A DNA stretch of 64,000 nt, taken from positions 1 through 64,000 of the forward strand of contig QQUF01000005.1 of the NCBI GenBank assembly GCA_008501735.1, given 5' to 3'. Under the pieces are notes generated by a model that saw only the letters and a program-made list of their open reading frames with translations, did not search any database and was not told the origin of the DNA. Of this stretch, positions 3,489 to 13,877 are shown one piece after another. The position numbers were made by a program, and so were the translations under genes. The DNA comes from Calditrichota bacterium (GTDB lineage Bacteria > CLD3). Each line of letters opens with the position of its first letter. The first letter of the stretch is position 1.

Positions 3489-5174
3489 ATGACGAAATAT
3501 CTTTCTGACATTGAGATTGCTCAAAAAGCAAAATTATTACCAATAAAAGAAGTCGCAAAATCAATTGGATTTGAAGATTCAGATTTGATTCCTTACGGCG
3601 AATACAAAGCAAAAATAAAAATTTCAACAATTAATAGAATCTTTGCTGAAAAGAAAAAAGATGCGAAATTAATTTTAGTAAGTGCAATAACTCCAACTCC
3701 TGCAGGAGAAGGAAAAACAACAGTTAGCATTGGTTTAACTCAAGCACTCAAACAAATCGGAAAAAATGTAAACGTAGCTTTGAGAGAGCCTTCTCTTGGA
3801 CCTTGTCTTGGAATGAAAGGTGGAGCAACAGGAGGCGGTTATTCGCAAGTTTTGCCAATGGAAGACATAAATCTACATTTCACTGGCGATTTACACGCAA
3901 TCACAACAGCTAACAATTTAATCAGTGCGGCTTTAGACAACAGCCTCCATTTCAAAAGTGATTTAAACATCAATCCTCGCGATGTTTCTTGGAAGCGAGT
4001 TATGGATATGAATGAAAGAGCTTTGAGAGATATTGTGCTTGGACTTGGTGGAAAAGGAAACAGTGTTCCAAGAGAATCAGGATTTGACATCACAGCGGCT
4101 TCTGAAATTATGGCGATTCTTTGTCTTTCAAACAGTTACTCGGAACTCAAAGAGAAAATTAGTAACATTCTTCTCGGCTTCACAAATGACAACAAACCAG
4201 TTTTGGTTAAAGATTTGAATGTTGAAGGTGCAGTAACAGCTTTGCTAAAAGAAGCACTTTTACCAAACTTAGTTCAGACAACAGAAAATGGAGCAGCATT
4301 CATTCACGGAGGTCCTTTTGCAAATATTGCTCAAGGTGCAAACTCGATTATGGCAACGAAACTTGCAATGAAATGTGCAGATTACACAGTAACGGAAGCA
4401 GGTTTTGGTTTTGACCTTGGAGCAGAAAAATTCTTCGACATTGTTTGTCATTACGGAAAATTTAAACCTTCTGCGGTTGTGATTGTTGCAACAATTCGAG
4501 CTTTGAAAATGCACGGAGGAATTGCTAAAAAAGATTTAGGCGAACCAAATGCAAAAGCTGTCTTAGAAGGTCGTGGAAACTTAGAAAAACATTTGGACAG
4601 TGCAAAAAGATTTGGAATGAAACCAATTGTTGCGATTAATAAATTTGTAACTGACACAGAAGAAGAGATAAATGCCGTTAAAGAAATTTGCGAGAAAAAC
4701 GATGCTGAGTTTGCAGTTGCAAATATTTGGGAAGAGGGCGGAAAAGGTGGAGTAGAATTGGCTCAAAAAGTCGCTGAAATGGCTGATTCTGACAAATGTA
4801 ATTACCAAAGACTTTATGATTTGGATTCAACCGTTGAAGAGAAAATTGAAAAAGTTGCAAGAGAAGTTTACGGTGCAAATGGAATCGAACTTCACGCTCA
4901 AGCGAAAAAAGATTTGCGAAAAATCAAAAAATTAGGCTACGACAAGTTGCCAATTTGCATTGCAAAAACTCAAAATTCACTTTCTGACAATAAAGCATTA
5001 ATCGGAAGACCGACAGATTTTACAATTAATGTTCGTGAAATATTAATTTCAGCCGGAGCAGGATTTTTAGTTCCTTTGACAGGAGAAATTATGAGAATGC
5101 CAGGACTTCCAAGAATTCCTGCGGCAGAACAAATTGACATTGATGACGATGGAAATATTTCAGGTTTATTTTAA
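3489..5174 (+). CDS. fhs: Formate--tetrahydrofolate ligase
   Basis: Cytosolic enzyme making 10-formyl-THF from formate, ATP and THF. At 561 aa it has normal family length. The P-loop TPTPAGEGKTT lies at about residues 63-73, followed by LREPSLGPCLGMKGGATGGG and the FTGDLHAI segment near 131, all typical of Fhs. The C-terminal PLTGEIMRMPGLPRIPAA is also diagnostic. The ATG at 3489 follows a stretch without a strong Shine-Dalgarno. Product feeds purine synthesis; purN, a user of 10-formyl-THF, lies at 53.9 kb. A perfect hairpin closes the gene at 5180. Confidence 0.98.
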   Translation: MTKYLSDIEIAQKAKLLPIKEVAKSIGFEDSDLIPYGEYKAKIKISTINRIFAEKKKDAKLILVSAITPTPAGEGKTTVSIGLTQALKQIGKNVNVALREPSLGPCLGMKGGATGGGYSQVLPMEDINLHFTGDLHAITTANNLISAALDNSLHFKSDLNINPRDVSWKRVMDMNERALRDIVLGLGGKGNSVPRESGFDITAASEIMAILCLSNSYSELKEKISNILLGFTNDNKPVLVKDLNVEGAVTALLKEALLPNLVQTTENGAAFIHGGPFANIAQGANSIMATKLAMKCADYTVTEAGFGFDLGAEKFFDIVCHYGKFKPSAVVIVATIRALKMHGGIAKKDLGEPNAKAVLEGRGNLEKHLDSAKRFGMKPIVAINKFVTDTEEEINAVKEICEKNDAEFAVANIWEEGGKGGVELAQKVAEMADSDKCNYQRLYDLDSTVEEKIEKVAREVYGANGIELHAQAKKDLRKIKKLGYDKLPICIAKTQNSLSDNKALIGRPTDFTINVREILISAGAGFLVPLTGEIMRMPGLPRIPAAEQIDIDDDGNISGLF

Positions 5175-7797: not shown

Positions 7798-8226
7798 ATG
7801 CTAATTTATCTTGATAATTGTTGTTTTAATTGTCCTTTCGACGACCAATCTCAATTAAAAATTAGACTTGAAACAGAAGCAAAGTTGGACATTCAAGAAA
7901 AAGTAAAACTCGGTGAATTTTCACTTTGTTAGTCATACATTCTTGATTATGAAAATGGATTAAATCCAAACTCTGAAAGAAAACAAGAAATTCAACGATG
8001 GAAGAAATTGTCAAGTTCGTTTACTTTAGAAACTTTTGAGGTTTTAGAAAAAATGAATAAAATTGTTTCTTTAGGTGTAAAGCCTTTAGATGCTTTGCAT
8101 ATTTCTTGTGCAATCTTTATGAATTGTGATTATTTTCTTACAGTTGATAACGGAATTCTAAAAAAGATGGATGATTTTCAAGAAATCAAAGTTATAAATC
8201 CTGTAAACTTTGTAGTAAATAGGTAA
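7798..8226 (+). pseudogene. PIN-domain toxin-like gene with in-frame TAG
   Basis: The reading frame starts MLIYLDNCCFNCPFDDQ, the N-terminus of a PIN-domain ribonuclease of the VapC type with the first acidic residue in YLDNC. It continues to codon 44, meets TAG at 7930-7932 (after EFSLC), then continues in the same frame as SYILDYENGLNP and on to LDALHISCA and DYFLTVDN, the second half of a PIN fold. Only this one stop interrupts 142 codons; family members usually have a Trp here (TGG), so a single G-to-A change explains it. Expected product is a dead toxin, unless the stop is read through. A 72-aa piece from 8008 is all that a simple ORF caller would keep. Confidence 0.85.
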
Positions 8227-8232
8227 ATAAAA

Positions 8233-8436
8233 ATGATTAGTGATTCTGAAATAAAAACTTTAGGCTTAGACATTTTAAGTAAAAATTTAGGGGTTGTTGA
8301 AGCTGAAAGGTTCGTCGCCCTTATTCAGAGAGATAATTTTGATTATACAAAGTGGAGGAGGAACTTGCTAAAAGAAGAATGTGGAGAGGAAATAAGTAAA
8401 AAAGCTATGGAGTTTCAGAAAAAACTCAAATTATAA
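8233..8436 (+). CDS. Small protein paired with the PIN gene, putative antitoxin
   Basis: 67 aa, charged and without membrane segments: begins MISDSEIKTLGLDILSKNLG and contains FDYTKWRRNLL and EEISKKAMEFQKK. Proteins of this type are commonly found next to PIN-domain genes, which is why an antitoxin role is inferred; no DNA-binding motif was recognised. It starts 7 bp after the PIN reading frame, unusual in that most vap antitoxin genes come first. With the toxin gene interrupted it may be a relic still intact. Confidence 0.65.
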   Translation: MISDSEIKTLGLDILSKNLGVVEAERFVALIQRDNFDYTKWRRNLLKEECGEEISKKAMEFQKKLKL

Positions 8437-8471
8437 AAATTTATTAACCTTTAAAAAGAATTTGAAATCAA

Positions 8472-9524
8472 ATGTTAACTACCAATGAAATTCAAGATTT
8501 AGTCCAAGGTTATGGACAACGAGTAAACGAGGGAAGAACAATTAAACAAATTGTTGAAGATGGAGATTTACCACGTCTAAAAGGCTCAACCATTTTAGAA
8601 GGTAAAGTTTCAGATTCTGTATTCGGAGACAGATTAAAAACAAAAAACGGAATTTCTATTAGGTTAATGTTCAGAGGGAATAGGATTTCAACTCACGACC
8701 AAAATCGTGGAGCAATTCCTTTTAAAGACCAAGTTCTTGCAATGAATCACGCTCATATGCTTGGGTTAGTTAAAGATGTTCTTGGTTCGTCACAGTTTGA
8801 AGTTCCTGACTTAGAGCCAAGTTCAACAGTGATTCCGGCAGAAAATTTAGATTTAATTATGCTCGAAAATGTTTTGAGAATGTTTAATGCAAAAAGTTCA
8901 ACTTCTACTTCTTTGTACCAACATTGGCTACAAGCTAAAGAAGATGGACTTGAAAAATTCAATTATGCTGGTCACGAAATTATTACTAATGAACTTAGCA
9001 CAAACGGTAAGTTAAGTTACTTAATGGACACTCCTTCGACTAAAGATAAAATTGATAAGACAATTGACCCTCAATTTTTATTTGATAACGGAGTTTGTAC
9101 ACCTTCACAATATTCTCAGATTAGAAATTCTTCCACAATGGCTTTTGGAATTGTAACGGAATATTTGAGAAATAAAGGAATGGTTTTAGTTGATACCAAA
9201 ACAGAACACGGAATTAATGCGAAAGGGCAAATTGTTGCTGCTGACGAATTATACACAATGGATTCTTCAAGATTTTGGAAACTCAACGATGACGGTTCTT
9301 TAATGACAAAAGACGGAAGTCCTGTGTCTTTTTCAAAAGAATTTGCAAGAGGAATGGTAAAAGAAAAAGGTCAACAATTTACAGCAGAGCAATCAAACCA
9401 AATTGCAATCAGATATATTGACGGAGTTCAAAACTTGACAGGACAAGAATTCAAACCTGATTTAAGACCAAGAGACGAAAGAATTATCGAATCCACAAAT
9501 ATGATTTTGGATTATTTGGTTTAA
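8472..9524 (+). CDS. purC: Phosphoribosylaminoimidazole-succinocarboxamide synthase
   Basis: SAICAR synthetase of de novo purine synthesis, joining CAIR and aspartate with ATP. 350 aa, in the long (~300-350 aa) class. Signatures: LEGKVSDSVFGD near 42-53, STHDQNRGAIPFKDQ near 73-87, LVDTKTEHGINAKG near 238 and DELYTMDSSRFW near 256. It lies 36 bp after the putative antitoxin gene. Its last 82 bp (9443-9524) are repeated at 11330-11411 with four substitutions, all synonymous. Confidence 0.95.
   Translation: MLTTNEIQDLVQGYGQRVNEGRTIKQIVEDGDLPRLKGSTILEGKVSDSVFGDRLKTKNGISIRLMFRGNRISTHDQNRGAIPFKDQVLAMNHAHMLGLVKDVLGSSQFEVPDLEPSSTVIPAENLDLIMLENVLRMFNAKSSTSTSLYQHWLQAKEDGLEKFNYAGHEIITNELSTNGKLSYLMDTPSTKDKIDKTIDPQFLFDNGVCTPSQYSQIRNSSTMAFGIVTEYLRNKGMVLVDTKTEHGINAKGQIVAADELYTMDSSRFWKLNDDGSLMTKDGSPVSFSKEFARGMVKEKGQQFTAEQSNQIAIRYIDGVQNLTGQEFKPDLRPRDERIIESTNMILDYLV
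9443..9524 (+). repeat. purC 3' end, copy 1 of an 82-bp direct repeat
   Basis: Begins ACAAGAATTCAAACC and ends with the purC stop codon. It matches 11330-11411 at 78 of 82 positions. The mismatches change GAT/GAC, ATC/ATT, TCC/TCA and ACA/ACC, so the encoded peptide is identical in both copies. Homology ends exactly at the stop codon on the right. Confidence 0.95.
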
Positions 9525-9531
9525 AGTTCCT

Positions 9532-9573
9532 GTTATACTCAGACCTTATCAAATAGTAAGGTCTGAGTATAAC
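9532..9573. terminator. Perfect 17-bp hairpin between convergent genes
   Basis: GTTATACTCAGACCTTA (9532-9548), 8-base loop, TAAGGTCTGAGTATAAC (9557-9573). It separates purC (+) from the GNAT gene (-) and can act in both directions. There is no T-run on the plus side. It also marks the left edge of the accessory block. Confidence 0.75.
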
Positions 9574-9585
9574 GATTGATGCACT

Positions 9586-10149
9586 TTATCTTAGTTGTTT
9601 TCGCATTACATAATAATTATCATACTCTTTATTTATCTCGAAATCGTATCTTTTGTATAATTCCAACGGTCCTTTGAAATTACTTGCACAGGATAACTCT
9701 CCTTTCCTTGGATACGCTTCAATATAATCATAGTCTTTATTTGAATAATCCGTAATAATCTTTTCAAGAATCTTTTGAGCAATTCCTTGTCTTCTATAAT
9801 CAGGATGAATTAAAAAACAAACAATTGAACAAACCTTATCATCAGGATTATCAATGTAATCATAGTCTTTTAATAATCTTTGATAATTTAACCTGTTATT
9901 TGCATTACACCATCCGATTGGTTTATCATTATCAAATACCAAATAACCTGTCATCTTATTTTCATTGATAAGTTTGATTACGCCAGAACGGTTTGAATCA
10001 CGAGTACAGGTTGTTATATCTCCAATAAAATGATAGTCGATACAATAACAACTTGACCAATCAGGGTTTTCTTTGAAAATCATATTGTCAAAGAAAAACA
10101 GATAATCATCTTTTAAATCTTTAGTCAATGGTCTTATTTCAATATTCAT
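9586..10149 (-). CDS. GNAT family N-acetyltransferase
   Basis: 187-aa soluble acetyltransferase. The acetyl-CoA loop is HPDYRRQGIAQKIL (about residues 114-127), preceded by the strand VCSIVCFLI. The N-terminus holds several cysteines and aromatic residues (NPDWSSCYCIDYHF), a pattern seen in GNATs that modify small molecules or drugs. The substrate is unknown. It lies with the hydrolase gene inside the segment bounded by the two purC ends, which suggests later acquisition. Confidence 0.85.
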   Translation of the reverse strand: MNIEIRPLTKDLKDDYLFFFDNMIFKENPDWSSCYCIDYHFIGDITTCTRDSNRSGVIKLINENKMTGYLVFDNDKPIGWCNANNRLNYQRLLKDYDYIDNPDDKVCSIVCFLIHPDYRRQGIAQKILEKIITDYSNKDYDYIEAYPRKGELSCASNFKGPLELYKRYDFEINKEYDNYYVMRKQLR

Positions 10150-10185
10150 TTTATTCCTTCTTTTTAATTCTAAAAAATAAAAGAA

Positions 10186-11187
10186 TTACTCGTTCATAAA
10201 TTTTATTAGTGGTTTGATGAAACTTTCAAATTTTTCAATATGTGGTAAATGACCAACATTTTTTATTTCAACCAATTGAGCATTCGGAATACTTTTTTGT
10301 GTTTTTTTACCTAATTCGCCATAAAGTCCCATTGTTTTTCTAACTTCTTCGGAGACTAATGGTTTTCCAAGTGCTGTTCTGTCTCTTGTACCGATTATTA
10401 GTAAGGTCGGAACTTTGATGTTTCCAAACTCATAAACAACAGGCTGTGTGAAAATCATATCGTAAGTTAGTGCAGCATTCCAAGCAATTCTTTTGTAGTC
10501 TGAATTTAAAGTCCAACCAGCTAATAAATTCACCCATTGGTCGTACTCATTTTTCCATTTGTTGTCGTAGTAGCTTTCAAGTTGATATTTTTTTATACCT
10601 TCATAACTTTTTTTAAGTTCATTTTGATACCACCATTCTACAGGTTTGTATGGAACTATTATTTTCCAATCTTCAAGACCAATTGGGTTTTCCAAGACTA
10701 ATTTTTGAGTTGTATTCGGATACATTAAAGTAAAACGAGTAGCGAGCATTCCACCCATTGAATGTCCTAAAACAGAAGTTTCTTTAACTTCCAAAAAATC
10801 TAGTAAAGTTTTCGTATTCTTTGCTAATTGCTGAAAAGTGTAATGAAAATTTGCAGGTTTTGAGGATTTCCCAAAACCGATTTGGTCGGGAACAATTACT
10901 CTAATTCCTTCTTTGGTTAATGCTTCAATCGTTGTTTCCCAGTAAGCACCATTAAAATTTTTTCCGTGAAAAAGCACAATGTTTTTTCCATTGTAATTTT
11001 CGGGTTTAATATCCATATACGCCATTTTCAAATTTTGCTCTTGAATATTTAATTTTAAAAATGAAACAGGATAAGGATATTCGTAATTTGATAATTCAAT
11101 ATCAAGCCATTGTAATTTATTGGTTTGAGCGATAGAAAATTGAATTGCTAAGATTATTAATAGTGCTGTTGCAAAATATTTTTTCAT
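10186..11187 (-). CDS. Secreted alpha/beta hydrolase
   Basis: 333 aa with an N-terminal signal peptide (MKKYFATALLIILAIQFSIA, cleavage near AQT). The catalytic triad can be seen: nucleophile Ser in GHSMGGM (about 141-147), Asp in IIGTRDRTA (about 268) and His in NVGHLPHIE (about 312). The oxyanion region is VLFHGKNFNG. It is probably a periplasmic esterase, lipase or C-C hydrolase of the epoxide-hydrolase/haloalkane dehalogenase-like group; the substrate is unknown. 36 bp from the GNAT start on the same strand, so likely co-transcribed. Confidence 0.88.
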   Translation of the reverse strand: MKKYFATALLIILAIQFSIAQTNKLQWLDIELSNYEYPYPVSFLKLNIQEQNLKMAYMDIKPENYNGKNIVLFHGKNFNGAYWETTIEALTKEGIRVIVPDQIGFGKSSKPANFHYTFQQLAKNTKTLLDFLEVKETSVLGHSMGGMLATRFTLMYPNTTQKLVLENPIGLEDWKIIVPYKPVEWWYQNELKKSYEGIKKYQLESYYDNKWKNEYDQWVNLLAGWTLNSDYKRIAWNAALTYDMIFTQPVVYEFGNIKVPTLLIIGTRDRTALGKPLVSEEVRKTMGLYGELGKKTQKSIPNAQLVEIKNVGHLPHIEKFESFIKPLIKFMNE

Positions 11188-11329
11188 TTTTTCCTTGTTG
11201 GTTATTGTTTTACACTAAGTGATTTGATTATTAACTGATTTTACGCAAAGTAGTAAAAGTTATTTATTTACAATTGTTCCAAAGTTAATTTGTTTTTCGA
11301 AGTTTTAAGATGTATTTCTTAAAATTATT

Positions 11330-11411
11330 ACAAGAATTCAAACCTGACTTAAGACCAAGAGACGAAAGAATTATTGAATCAACCAATATGATTTTGGATT
11401 ATTTGGTTTAA
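11330..11411 (+). repeat. purC 3' end remnant, copy 2 of the 82-bp direct repeat
   Basis: Encodes the same C-terminal peptide as purC (QEFKPDLRPRDERIIESTNM ... DYLV, stop) but has no upstream part of the gene: homology starts abruptly at 11330. Four differences, all synonymous, imply that this end was part of a functional purC allele until recently. It abuts the attC-like site, overlapping it by the GTTTAA bases. Confidence 0.93.
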
Positions 11412-11536
11412 CGGTTTCGGCTATGCGTAGTGTGGGATTTCAAGGCACTTACCTTTCAATTTAGCACTTAGTTTCTTTAATGTAATTAATTTCATATTAG
11501 CACTTTAGCCCACATTACGTATAGCCATTGTTGGGC
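11406..11536. repeat. attC-like integron recombination site (putative)
   Basis: 131 bp bounded by GTTTAAC (11406-11412, fits RYYYAAC) and GTTGGGC (11530-11536, fits GTTRRRY), which are the outer core sites of an attC. Inside, GGCTATGCGTAGTGTGGG (11419-11436) pairs with CCCACATTACGTATAGCC (11509-11526) over 18 bp with two G-T wobbles. Unequal spacers of 6 and 3 bases separate outer and inner arms, as in attC folded structures, and the loop is about 72 bases. Total length is within the known attC range. No integron integrase gene lies in the window, so the identity rests on structure alone. Confidence 0.6.
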
Positions 11537-11541
11537 GTTCG

Positions 11542-13605
11542 TTATTCTTTTTCAGCATATTTTATCGTCAGTTCGTCTTCTGAATCAAATATTGTCAATG
11601 CGTGTTTTATCTTCTCAAATTTTCCAATATTGTCAATGTTTCCTTCAATGAAATAAGTGTCGTTTATTGCAACTGCTTGTCTCGGATTTCCTTCTTTTGG
11701 GTTTTTGGTTAATGTTATTTTCTCAGCCAAGTCTGTTGTGAAAAATGTCTCTGGCTGTAAGTCAAAAAGTTGCTTAAATACTTCTACATACAATTTAGCG
11801 ACTTGATTAACTTCTATTTTTTGGTCGAAGAAAATAGCGTACTCTAATTTTTTATGTTTTGGGTCTTCTGCTTCAAAAATGTTCACTTCGTTGTTTTCGT
11901 CTCTTTCATCTAATTCGATTTGTGGCATTTGCCAAATTTTCAAAAATCGTTCTGCAAGAAGGTCAAAGCGTCTTTCTATTTCTGCTTTATCCCATTTGTC
12001 TGCAATTGACAAATATTTATTAAGCCACAAGCGACTGTCTTTATAGCCTGCATTTTCTAAATCTCTTTTAAACACAAATGGTTTGTTTCCAAGTTTTCCA
12101 TTGTTACCCGATAATGTCAAATTACCAATTGTGTTCAAATAGGTTTCTTTGATTAAGTTGTATTCATCTGCTCCTAAATCCACTTTCCATTTAGGGTCAG
12201 GGTTTTGTGGAAAAATATGTTCTATGGTTATATCTGCATTTCCTTCAATTATTACTGGTTCGTTATTTTCAAAATTCTCAAGTCGTTCAAGTAGGTAAGT
12301 TCTGTTTTTGGATTTTATGTTGTAAACATCTTTTAGTTTCAGGCTTTCAACAACTTCTTTGTTTTTTGGAAAACGTTGTGAGCCTGGTCTTTTTAGTAAC
12401 CATTTTTGCAGGGACAATAAATAATCGTTTTTATCCACTTTTTCGTAAAGTGTCATAAATATTTTATTCAGTGCGTTTGTAGGCAAACCAACAATAAATC
12501 TTCTCCAAGCAAAGGATTGTATGAAATCCAAAACTTTTATAAATGTTGCTTTATCAATTACGTTTTCTGAATAGTCTTCATAAACTTTCATTAAAAACGG
12601 ATAAGCCACATTTATTTCAAGTCTGTTTATGTATTCAAGTTGTAATCTTATGTCTTTGTCCGTCTCGTTTTTTGGATTTAGTAGTTTATTATAAAACTTA
12701 ACAAGCGATTTTATTGGTGCAAGGTTGGTTTCTAATTCTTGTAAGTCAGTTGTTGGAAACTTTGCTTTAAACTCCAAATAAACTTTGCTTTTATTTGGGA
12801 TTTTATTGTTTACTAAAGTCAAATAATCTCTAATAAAATCAGAAACTTTGCTTGTATTCAAGGTTTCATCTTTTGCGAGTTTCTCAATGATTTCCCAATA
12901 GTTGTTATAAATCTTATTTTGGTCTCTACGATTGAGACCCATTAAAATATAGTTTCTAATTAAGTCTGCTTGTGATAATTCAAGACCTGTTGAGTTTAAA
13001 CTTTCAAAAATTCTTTGAGGGTCGTCTTTTTCTCTATCAAGCGAAATTTCTACAAACATCAGTTTTGAAAGCCCTTTCAATACGAACTCAAAATTTTCTT
13101 CAGTTATCCTGCTTTTAAAATAGTTGAAGTTGTCAATTACTTTCGAGAAGTCACTAAACTCTTCATCTTTATCGCTTCTTAAAAGGTATTTTATTGCTTT
13201 GTCGTTATTTTCAGTTGGTCGAAGTTTTAATTTTTCTTCTTCGGGTGCAAACTTATTTGTGAGATATGTTTCTGAAATTTCGGCTTCAAGTCCTTTATCT
13301 CCAATTTCAATTGCCAAACGATAAAGAGCCAAATAAATTAAAGTCAAAGTAGTCAATCTTTGCTGTCCGTCAATTACAGTCAGTTCTTTAATTCGTGAAG
13401 AAGTGTAAACGTCATCGTGAACATAAACAACACTACCGATGAAATGTGCATTCATTTTATTACTCGTTCCAACTTCCAAAATATCATCTAAAAGTTGTTT
13501 GCATTGACTTGTCGACCAATCATAATTTCTTTGGTAAACTGGAATTACAAATTGTGTCTTATTTGAAGATAAAAAGTCTTCTACTTTCGTTTCGTTTGCT
13601 TTCAT
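11542..13605 (-). CDS. GmrSD-like DUF262/DUF1524 protein, putative type IV restriction enzyme
   Basis: 687 aa, fused GmrS+GmrD architecture. N-terminal DUF262 domain: VYQRNYDW (about 22-29) and IDGQQRLTTLTLIY (about 79-92), the ParB-like nucleotide-binding motifs; FESLNSTGLELSQADLIRNY (about 204-223) follows. DUF1524 (His-Me finger nuclease) domain: IEHIFPQNPDP (HxxP near 460) and LNTIGNLTLSGNNGKLGN. A further ~110-residue C-terminal domain (about 575-687) is not assigned. Relatives cleave modified phage DNA with NTP hydrolysis. The gene is alone, with attC-like sequences at both ends and no partner gene, which suggests a self-contained anti-phage cassette; the defence role is inferred from the family. 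Confidence 0.88.
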   Translation of the reverse strand: MKANETKVEDFLSSNKTQFVIPVYQRNYDWSTSQCKQLLDDILEVGTSNKMNAHFIGSVVYVHDDVYTSSRIKELTVIDGQQRLTTLTLIYLALYRLAIEIGDKGLEAEISETYLTNKFAPEEEKLKLRPTENNDKAIKYLLRSDKDEEFSDFSKVIDNFNYFKSRITEENFEFVLKGLSKLMFVEISLDREKDDPQRIFESLNSTGLELSQADLIRNYILMGLNRRDQNKIYNNYWEIIEKLAKDETLNTSKVSDFIRDYLTLVNNKIPNKSKVYLEFKAKFPTTDLQELETNLAPIKSLVKFYNKLLNPKNETDKDIRLQLEYINRLEINVAYPFLMKVYEDYSENVIDKATFIKVLDFIQSFAWRRFIVGLPTNALNKIFMTLYEKVDKNDYLLSLQKWLLKRPGSQRFPKNKEVVESLKLKDVYNIKSKNRTYLLERLENFENNEPVIIEGNADITIEHIFPQNPDPKWKVDLGADEYNLIKETYLNTIGNLTLSGNNGKLGNKPFVFKRDLENAGYKDSRLWLNKYLSIADKWDKAEIERRFDLLAERFLKIWQMPQIELDERDENNEVNIFEAEDPKHKKLEYAIFFDQKIEVNQVAKLYVEVFKQLFDLQPETFFTTDLAEKITLTKNPKEGNPRQAVAINDTYFIEGNIDNIGKFEKIKHALTIFDSEDELTIKYAEKE

Positions 13606-13647
13606 TTATTCAATTCAGTTCAATGTTTGTTCGGGTTTTCTAATGAC

Positions 13648-13731
13648 GCCCAACATCTTAATAAACGCATTGCGTTTATCGGGACTATAACTTGAGTTTT
13701 TATTCGTTTATTACGCAACATTGTTTTTAAC
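13648..13731. repeat. Second attC-like hairpin region (weak)
   Basis: Starts with GCCCAAC (13648-13654), which reads GTTGGGC on the minus strand and mirrors the 11530 site at the other end of the DUF262 gene. TAATAAACG (13659-13667) recurs inverted as CGTTTATTA (13705-13713), a 9-bp stem; an internal palindrome ATAAACGCATTGCGTTTAT lies at 13660-13678. The opposite core box is degenerate, so this is a weaker candidate than 11406-11536. Confidence 0.35.
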
Positions 13732-13877
13732 ATATGTTTGTTTTTCAATTAATTCTAAACTAAAATTTTACTAACGGAAAACAAATTGAAATTTTATTTC
13801 CTTCAAAAATTAATTCTGAATAATTTAAATTGCACAACGTTTAGCTTCCCAAACTTTTAACTTTATCGGAAAAATCA

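Follow-up and report, generated by a model that had tools for sequence, protein, structure and literature searches.

A duplicated purC-like gene end, two passenger genes and a lone predicted GmrSD integron cassette at one locus of a Calditrichota bacterium

The window analysed here comprises 64,000 nucleotides of a Calditrichota bacterium genome (contig QQUF01000005.1, positions 1 to 64,000) and contains a complete purC-like gene (8472-9524, plus strand) for a protein of 350 amino acids. Despite its match to the Pfam family SAICAR_synt (1.4e-23), the protein stays below all NCBIfam PurC cut-offs. A canonical purC, encoding 234 amino acids, adjoins purB elsewhere in the same genome (contig G000:C5, locus L078), and the gene in the window is therefore a second, divergent, extra PurC-family gene. 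The preliminary description named it purC, but the canonical gene is the one beside purB. Relatives of the protein with 66-75% identity occur in records labelled Calditrichota, Planctomycetota, Verrucomicrobiota, Gammaproteobacteria and others, and this patchy scatter over phyla suggests horizontal spread. Just upstream of the gene (7798-8437) lie the remnant of a PIN-domain toxin with an in-frame stop codon and a small antitoxin-like ORF; the region thus gains accessory genes on both sides of the purC-like gene.

The last 82 bp of this gene (copy 1, 9443-9524, plus strand) recur in direct orientation at a spacing of 1887 bp (copy 2, 11330-11411, plus strand), with 78 of 82 positions identical. 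All four differences (T/C, C/T, C/A and A/C) are synonymous, and both copies translate to QEFKPDLRPRDERIIESTNMILDYLV followed by the stop codon. Four random changes in the frame of the repeat would all be synonymous with a probability of 0.001-0.006, or of 0.01-0.04 if copy 1 was constrained and copy 2 neutral or free. The contig has no second local direct repeat with a length of 60 bp or more and an identity of 85% or more, which places this one far above chance expectation. Copy 1 is the end of the complete ORF of 350 amino acids, while copy 2 lies within no ORF of at least 80 amino acids and has the form of an orphan 3' end of a displaced allele. The earlier observation that 82 bp at the end of the gene recur with only synonymous differences is hence borne out, and this pattern of divergence, which indicates a formerly coding sequence, supports the accompanying proposal that copy 2 was once under selection, likely as the original local end of the gene.

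An in-place tandem duplication of the gene end, followed by insertion or deletion and later divergence, would also leave two copies close together and in direct orientation. A free copy should, however, have gained amino acid changes, and four synonymous differences remain improbable even if copy 2 alone was free. In addition, the flanks of the two copies differ on both sides, leaving this explanation with very little credibility. Copy 2 probably survives from an older purC-like gene whose place was taken by a newer one that brought two passenger genes.

These passengers occupy the 1805-bp insert between the copies (9525-11329) and are its sole ORFs: a GNAT acetyltransferase of 187 amino acids (9586-10149, minus strand; Pfam Acetyltransf_1, 5.9e-9) and an alpha/beta hydrolase of 333 amino acids with an apparent signal peptide (10186-11187, minus strand; Pfam Abhydrolase_1, 2.2e-25), which has plasmid homologues with up to 53% identity. 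Directly after the stop codon of the purC-like gene, a perfect 17-bp inverted repeat (9532-9573), without a T run, could serve as a shared terminator. As stated in the preliminary description, the insert has no integrase; neither a tyrosine nor a serine recombinase is encoded between the repeats, and the window contains no tRNA as an insertion target. As in genomic islands that tyrosine recombinases insert at gene 3' ends, the target is intact and its 3' end is found at both borders of the insert. Unlike integrase-borne islands, the insert is only 1.8 kb long and carries no integrase or sign of mobility genes. A viral origin was considered and rejected, as IMG/VR holds no relatives of the purC-like gene, the GNAT gene or the hairpin described below, and no attC match was found in phages.

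The hairpin follows copy 2 directly 3' of its stop codon. In BLAST searches it matches plasmids of Persicobacter (Bacteroidota) with 73.7% identity over 132 bp, and eight places in a single plasmid, pPP2, where the matches sit between co-oriented small genes of a long array. The intergenic sites of pPP2 have an attC-like form of about 130 bp, in which a palindrome is enclosed by RYYYAAC and GTTRRRY boxes; a simple scan detected 24 of them, compared with one on the opposite strand and none on the reversed strand as controls. A covariance model built from 12 of the pPP2 attC sites only (R1) matches the window at full length at 11406-11536 on the minus strand (110.9 bits, E 1.9e-22). Over the whole 4.14-Mb genome, R1 finds no second convincing attC site, the next match reaching 18.8 bits (E 0.9). 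The boxes of the window site conform to the RYYYAAC and GTTRRRY forms, with R'' GCCCAAC at 11530-11536 and R' GTTAAAC, in which the crossover G|TT is predicted at 11412|11411. DNA folding predicts a stem of roughly 18 bp; in the strand expected to recombine, extrahelical bases do not show up as clear bulges. Other identities of the hairpin were discarded: it matches no known RNA family, and it is present in a single copy rather than as a genome-wide repeat. A second hairpin, at 13648-13740, is not matched by R1 and is read as part of the presumed flank of the displaced purC-like allele (purC-2). Outside this genome, a weaker BLAST match of the hairpin query lies between blaOXA-209 and estT in the Riemerella anatipestifer plasmid pRA0726 (about 4935-5125). 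This stretch reads as an attC-like RYYYAAC-GTTRRRY palindrome, R1 reported no site there, and blaOXA-209 and estT may be carried on cassettes of a related type.

The attC site ends a predicted gene cassette with a single gene (11542-13605, minus strand), which encodes a GmrSD/DUF262 type IV restriction-like defence protein of 687 amino acids (PADLOC Orf5, 1e-145). GmrSD_N (4.4e-40) and GmrSD_C (1e-22) both exceed their Pfam gathering scores in this one protein. The combination of both domains in one protein is shared with GmrSD/DUF262 type IV restriction systems, whereas carriage on an integron cassette distinguishes the present gene from the other systems. The gene lies in the coding sense of the attC site at the 3' end of the cassette. 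The first bases of an integron cassette pair with its own R'' box. Here, TTGGGC, starting at 13653, is complementary to GCCCAA of R''; it belongs to a GTTGGGC heptamer 48 nt before the GmrSD start codon, and this heptamer and its complement occur only five times in the 64 kb. This complementarity and the attC end delimit a predicted cassette of 2242 bp (11412-13653, minus strand). At the other side, the host G at 13654 begins the presumed original 3' flank of purC-2 (13654-13680), which contains the palindrome ATAAACGCATTGCGTTTAT at 13661-13679. When the flanks are joined on the minus strand, ..TTATTAAGATG|TTAAACCAAATAATCC.. forms a perfect GTTRRRY box, GTTAAAC, and the stop codon of purC-2 falls within its TTAAAC half.

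The cassette end at 11411|11412 coincides with the exact end of homology between the two copies. The right edge of homology, which the preliminary description had placed at the stop codon, does fall there, but it is also the predicted crossover point of an integron integrase (G|TTAAAC), which that description missed. Its suggestion that an inserted element ended at this point loses support, since a separate cassette insertion and the unrelated 3' flanks would account for the edge. For the same reason, the string GTTTAACGGTTTCGG, which that description proposed as a diagnostic for the native arrangement downstream of the gene, is better read as the product of the junction that cassette insertion made between purC-2 and attC. 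Copy 1 continues 3' into AGTTCCTGTTATACTC.. and copy 2, after reconstruction, into CATCTTAATAAACGC.., two unrelated flanks, whereas the coding ends share 95% identity without any amino acid change. This combination fits two functional alleles from related lineages and supports the earlier idea that recombination had joined two alleles of the gene. The predicted cassette boundaries place the orphan tail in direct contact, to the base, with one defence-gene cassette of the integron kind.

The enzyme expected to move such a cassette is not recognisable in the genome. No match to TIGR02249 exceeds the 265-bit cut-off for an integron integrase, and the best match to the array-type integrase described below scores only 114 bits, compared with 229-826 bits in most class relatives. 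A complete integron, with intI beside attI and an array, was likewise not found in the genome. The integrase would therefore have acted in trans, have been lost, or be encoded in an unassembled part of the genome. No attC site was detected near three plasmid homologues of the GmrSD gene (48-56% identity). For IntI1, GNT is reported to be sufficient at secondary sites and to be extendable to GTTRRRY (PMC10127599), and cassette insertion into genomic attG sites is summarised in PMC12901181. The predicted cassette shares with those at secondary or attG sites the RYYYAAC-GTTRRRY attC at its 3' end, a gene in the sense of attC, the G|TT crossover, first bases complementary to R'' and the GTTRRRY target. 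It differs in standing alone, in a genome where no integron integrase is detected, in having the stop codon of a purC-like gene as its target, and in the Bacteroidota-type family of its attC site.

The locus was compared with those of 33 relatives of the purC-like protein (66-75% amino acid identity). A duplicated 3' end is present at none of the 33 loci, and no attC of the window type is found near any of them. Neither a donor nor a recipient in the state before the event is seen among them. Nor is either of the two outcomes observed that the preliminary description named as refuting it, an arrangement shared by all relatives or a tandem duplication longer than the repeat. The single genome of the same family consists of contigs too short to reveal synteny with the locus.

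Within the genome itself, a scan for orphan gene tails, covering about 2.3 Mb (56%), revealed two more scars that resemble the one at the purC-like gene, i.e., an intact gene, new DNA downstream and the orphan 3' end of a second allele. In the first, a HicA toxin gene (Pfam, 2.3e-20) on the opposite strand and an antitoxin-like ORF lie behind hypD (G000:C46:70586-71680); beyond this insert, which contains no recombinase, comes a 79-bp orphan hypD tail with 90% identity and amino acid changes (locus G000:C46:70586-72304). In the second, the next ORF after polA (G000:C32:37083-39821, minus strand; a name based on the C-terminal sequence) encodes 218 amino acids on the opposite strand, and beyond it about 220 bp of the polA 3' end persist as a remnant with a broken reading frame. 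Several toxin-antitoxin-like and GNAT fragments are also seen beyond the polA remnant (G000:C32:35600-39821). Repeats of T9SS C-terminal domains, a repeat at a GNAT 5' end and antisense ORFs, which the scan also returned, were set aside as unrelated. The scars at the purC-like gene, hypD and polA form a series from fresh to decayed.

This series bears on the possibility that the arrangement is an assembly chimera, in which two co-occurring strains, one with purC-GNAT-hydrolase and the other with purC-attC-GmrSD, were joined at 11329|11330. In that case, the scar would be an artefact, but a genuine attC cassette would still lie at the stop codon of purC-2. The two copies indeed differ in the way alleles of related strains do, and the genome, in 59 contigs, is apparently metagenome-derived. 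Estimated contamination is low (0.67), however, and the joining of living strains could not produce the decayed scars that share this architecture at hypD and polA, so the process appears to be real in this genome. The other two scars therefore argue against a chimera as a general explanation, even if an assembly junction might still underlie the purC scar; overall, a chimera is considered improbable.

The two best scars are nearly equal in length (82 and 79 bp), which freely placed illegitimate joints would not predict. Such similar lengths suit a Campbell-type integration, in which a small circle with the last ~80 bp of purC, the GNAT gene and the hydrolase gene would be integrated by one crossover in the shared stretch, through RecA or a tyrosine recombinase acting in trans. 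The repeat would then be an att-like direct repeat from which the insert can pop out again, and such an event would produce exactly the observed arrangement, in which the gene is whole and a direct repeat has its end at the stop codon. The absence of a recombinase from both the purC and the hypD inserts speaks against this route, as do the greater length of the third scar at polA and the failure to find a circular form or a free module. Integration of this kind is therefore judged unlikely.

The preferred reading, with a probability of about 0.6, is that the locus gained accessory DNA twice in succession at the 3' end of one gene, by cassette insertion and by allele displacement. In the cassette step, an integron integrase that the genome no longer has would have acted in trans and used the attC site to insert the single GmrSD cassette at a non-classical position, the genomic GTTAAAC box overlapping the stop codon of the resident purC allele, creating the junctions 11411|11412 and 13653|13654. 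In the displacement step, DNA from a related lineage, consisting of its own purC allele followed by the convergent GNAT-hydrolase pair, would have entered by a homologous crossover, within purC or upstream of it, on one side and by an illegitimate crossover at 11329|11330, 82 bp before the resident stop codon, on the other. No diagnostic signature is seen at the illegitimate joint. As an outcome, the incoming purC would be the working gene, followed by the passengers, and the resident allele would be reduced to a scar of its final 82 bp; the sequence does not fix the order of the two steps. In this reconstruction, in which the recombination routes and the donor are inferred, the predicted ancestral form has a purC ending in ..GGATTATTTGGTTTAACATCTTAATAAACGCATTGCG and lacks the cassette, and in the predicted donor purC is followed by AGTTCCTGTTATACTCAGACC and the GNAT-hydrolase pair.

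A precedent for the displacement step is provided by the T6SS effector-immunity arrays of Vibrio, in which displaced effector 3' ends were proposed to arise from homology-facilitated illegitimate recombination (PMC5361080). In both cases, an incoming allele takes over the gene and adds downstream genes, while the old 3' end is orphaned. In contrast to Vibrio, the host genes here are metabolic or housekeeping genes (the purC-like gene, hypD and polA), and the passengers are convergent to the host gene and not cognate to it. The locus unites in an unusual way two phenomena that are each known, namely an integron cassette on its own at a GTTRRRY box of the genome and the scar left when a gene end is displaced.

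The R1 model also leads to a particular type of integrase. Clusters of attC sites matching R1 are present in the class relatives G002, G004 and G006, and in G002 and G004 a tyrosine recombinase stands at the head of the array and in its orientation. Integrases of this type also lead the attC arrays of Persicobacter pPP2, of two plasmids of Persicobacter JZB09 and of a plasmid of Chryseobacterium SNU WT5, and one is found beside a single weak attC site in Rufibacter. At each of these seven loci, attC-like sites follow downstream of the integrase in the same orientation; apart from the training array of pPP2, all 16 attC matches with E <=0.01 are downstream of the integrase and on its strand. 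The array integrases match TIGR02249 in two parts, with profile positions ~180-238 missing, and the G002 integrase aligned with IntI4 (2a3v) has 17 residues, compared with 59, in the region of the IntI-specific additional domain. The two array integrases that were scanned fit the XerA model instead, and no match in five plasmid records exceeds the IntI cut-off. The additional domain (I2 region) is held to be needed for attC recombination. Surveys have used this domain to recognise IntI (PMC2426708; PMC9668308), and an integrase type without I2 would therefore be missed. From these sequence comparisons, the cassette beside the purC-like gene can be assigned tentatively, at slightly less than even odds, to an integron lineage that occurs in class relatives and in plasmids of Bacteroidota and in which the integrase at the head of the array is without the additional domain specific to IntI.

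A putative integron type with an I2-less integrase has apparently been overlooked so far. If such an integrase moves these cassettes, it would represent a non-canonical integron type that is filtered out by searches requiring the IntI domain. At the locus itself, the predicted boundaries provide evidence at base resolution that a defence gene moved on its own, in the form of an integron cassette, to a genomic site at the stop codon of a metabolic gene, although no integron integrase is recognised in this genome. The ends of housekeeping genes can also be repeated entry points for small accessory modules, leaving scars of different age.
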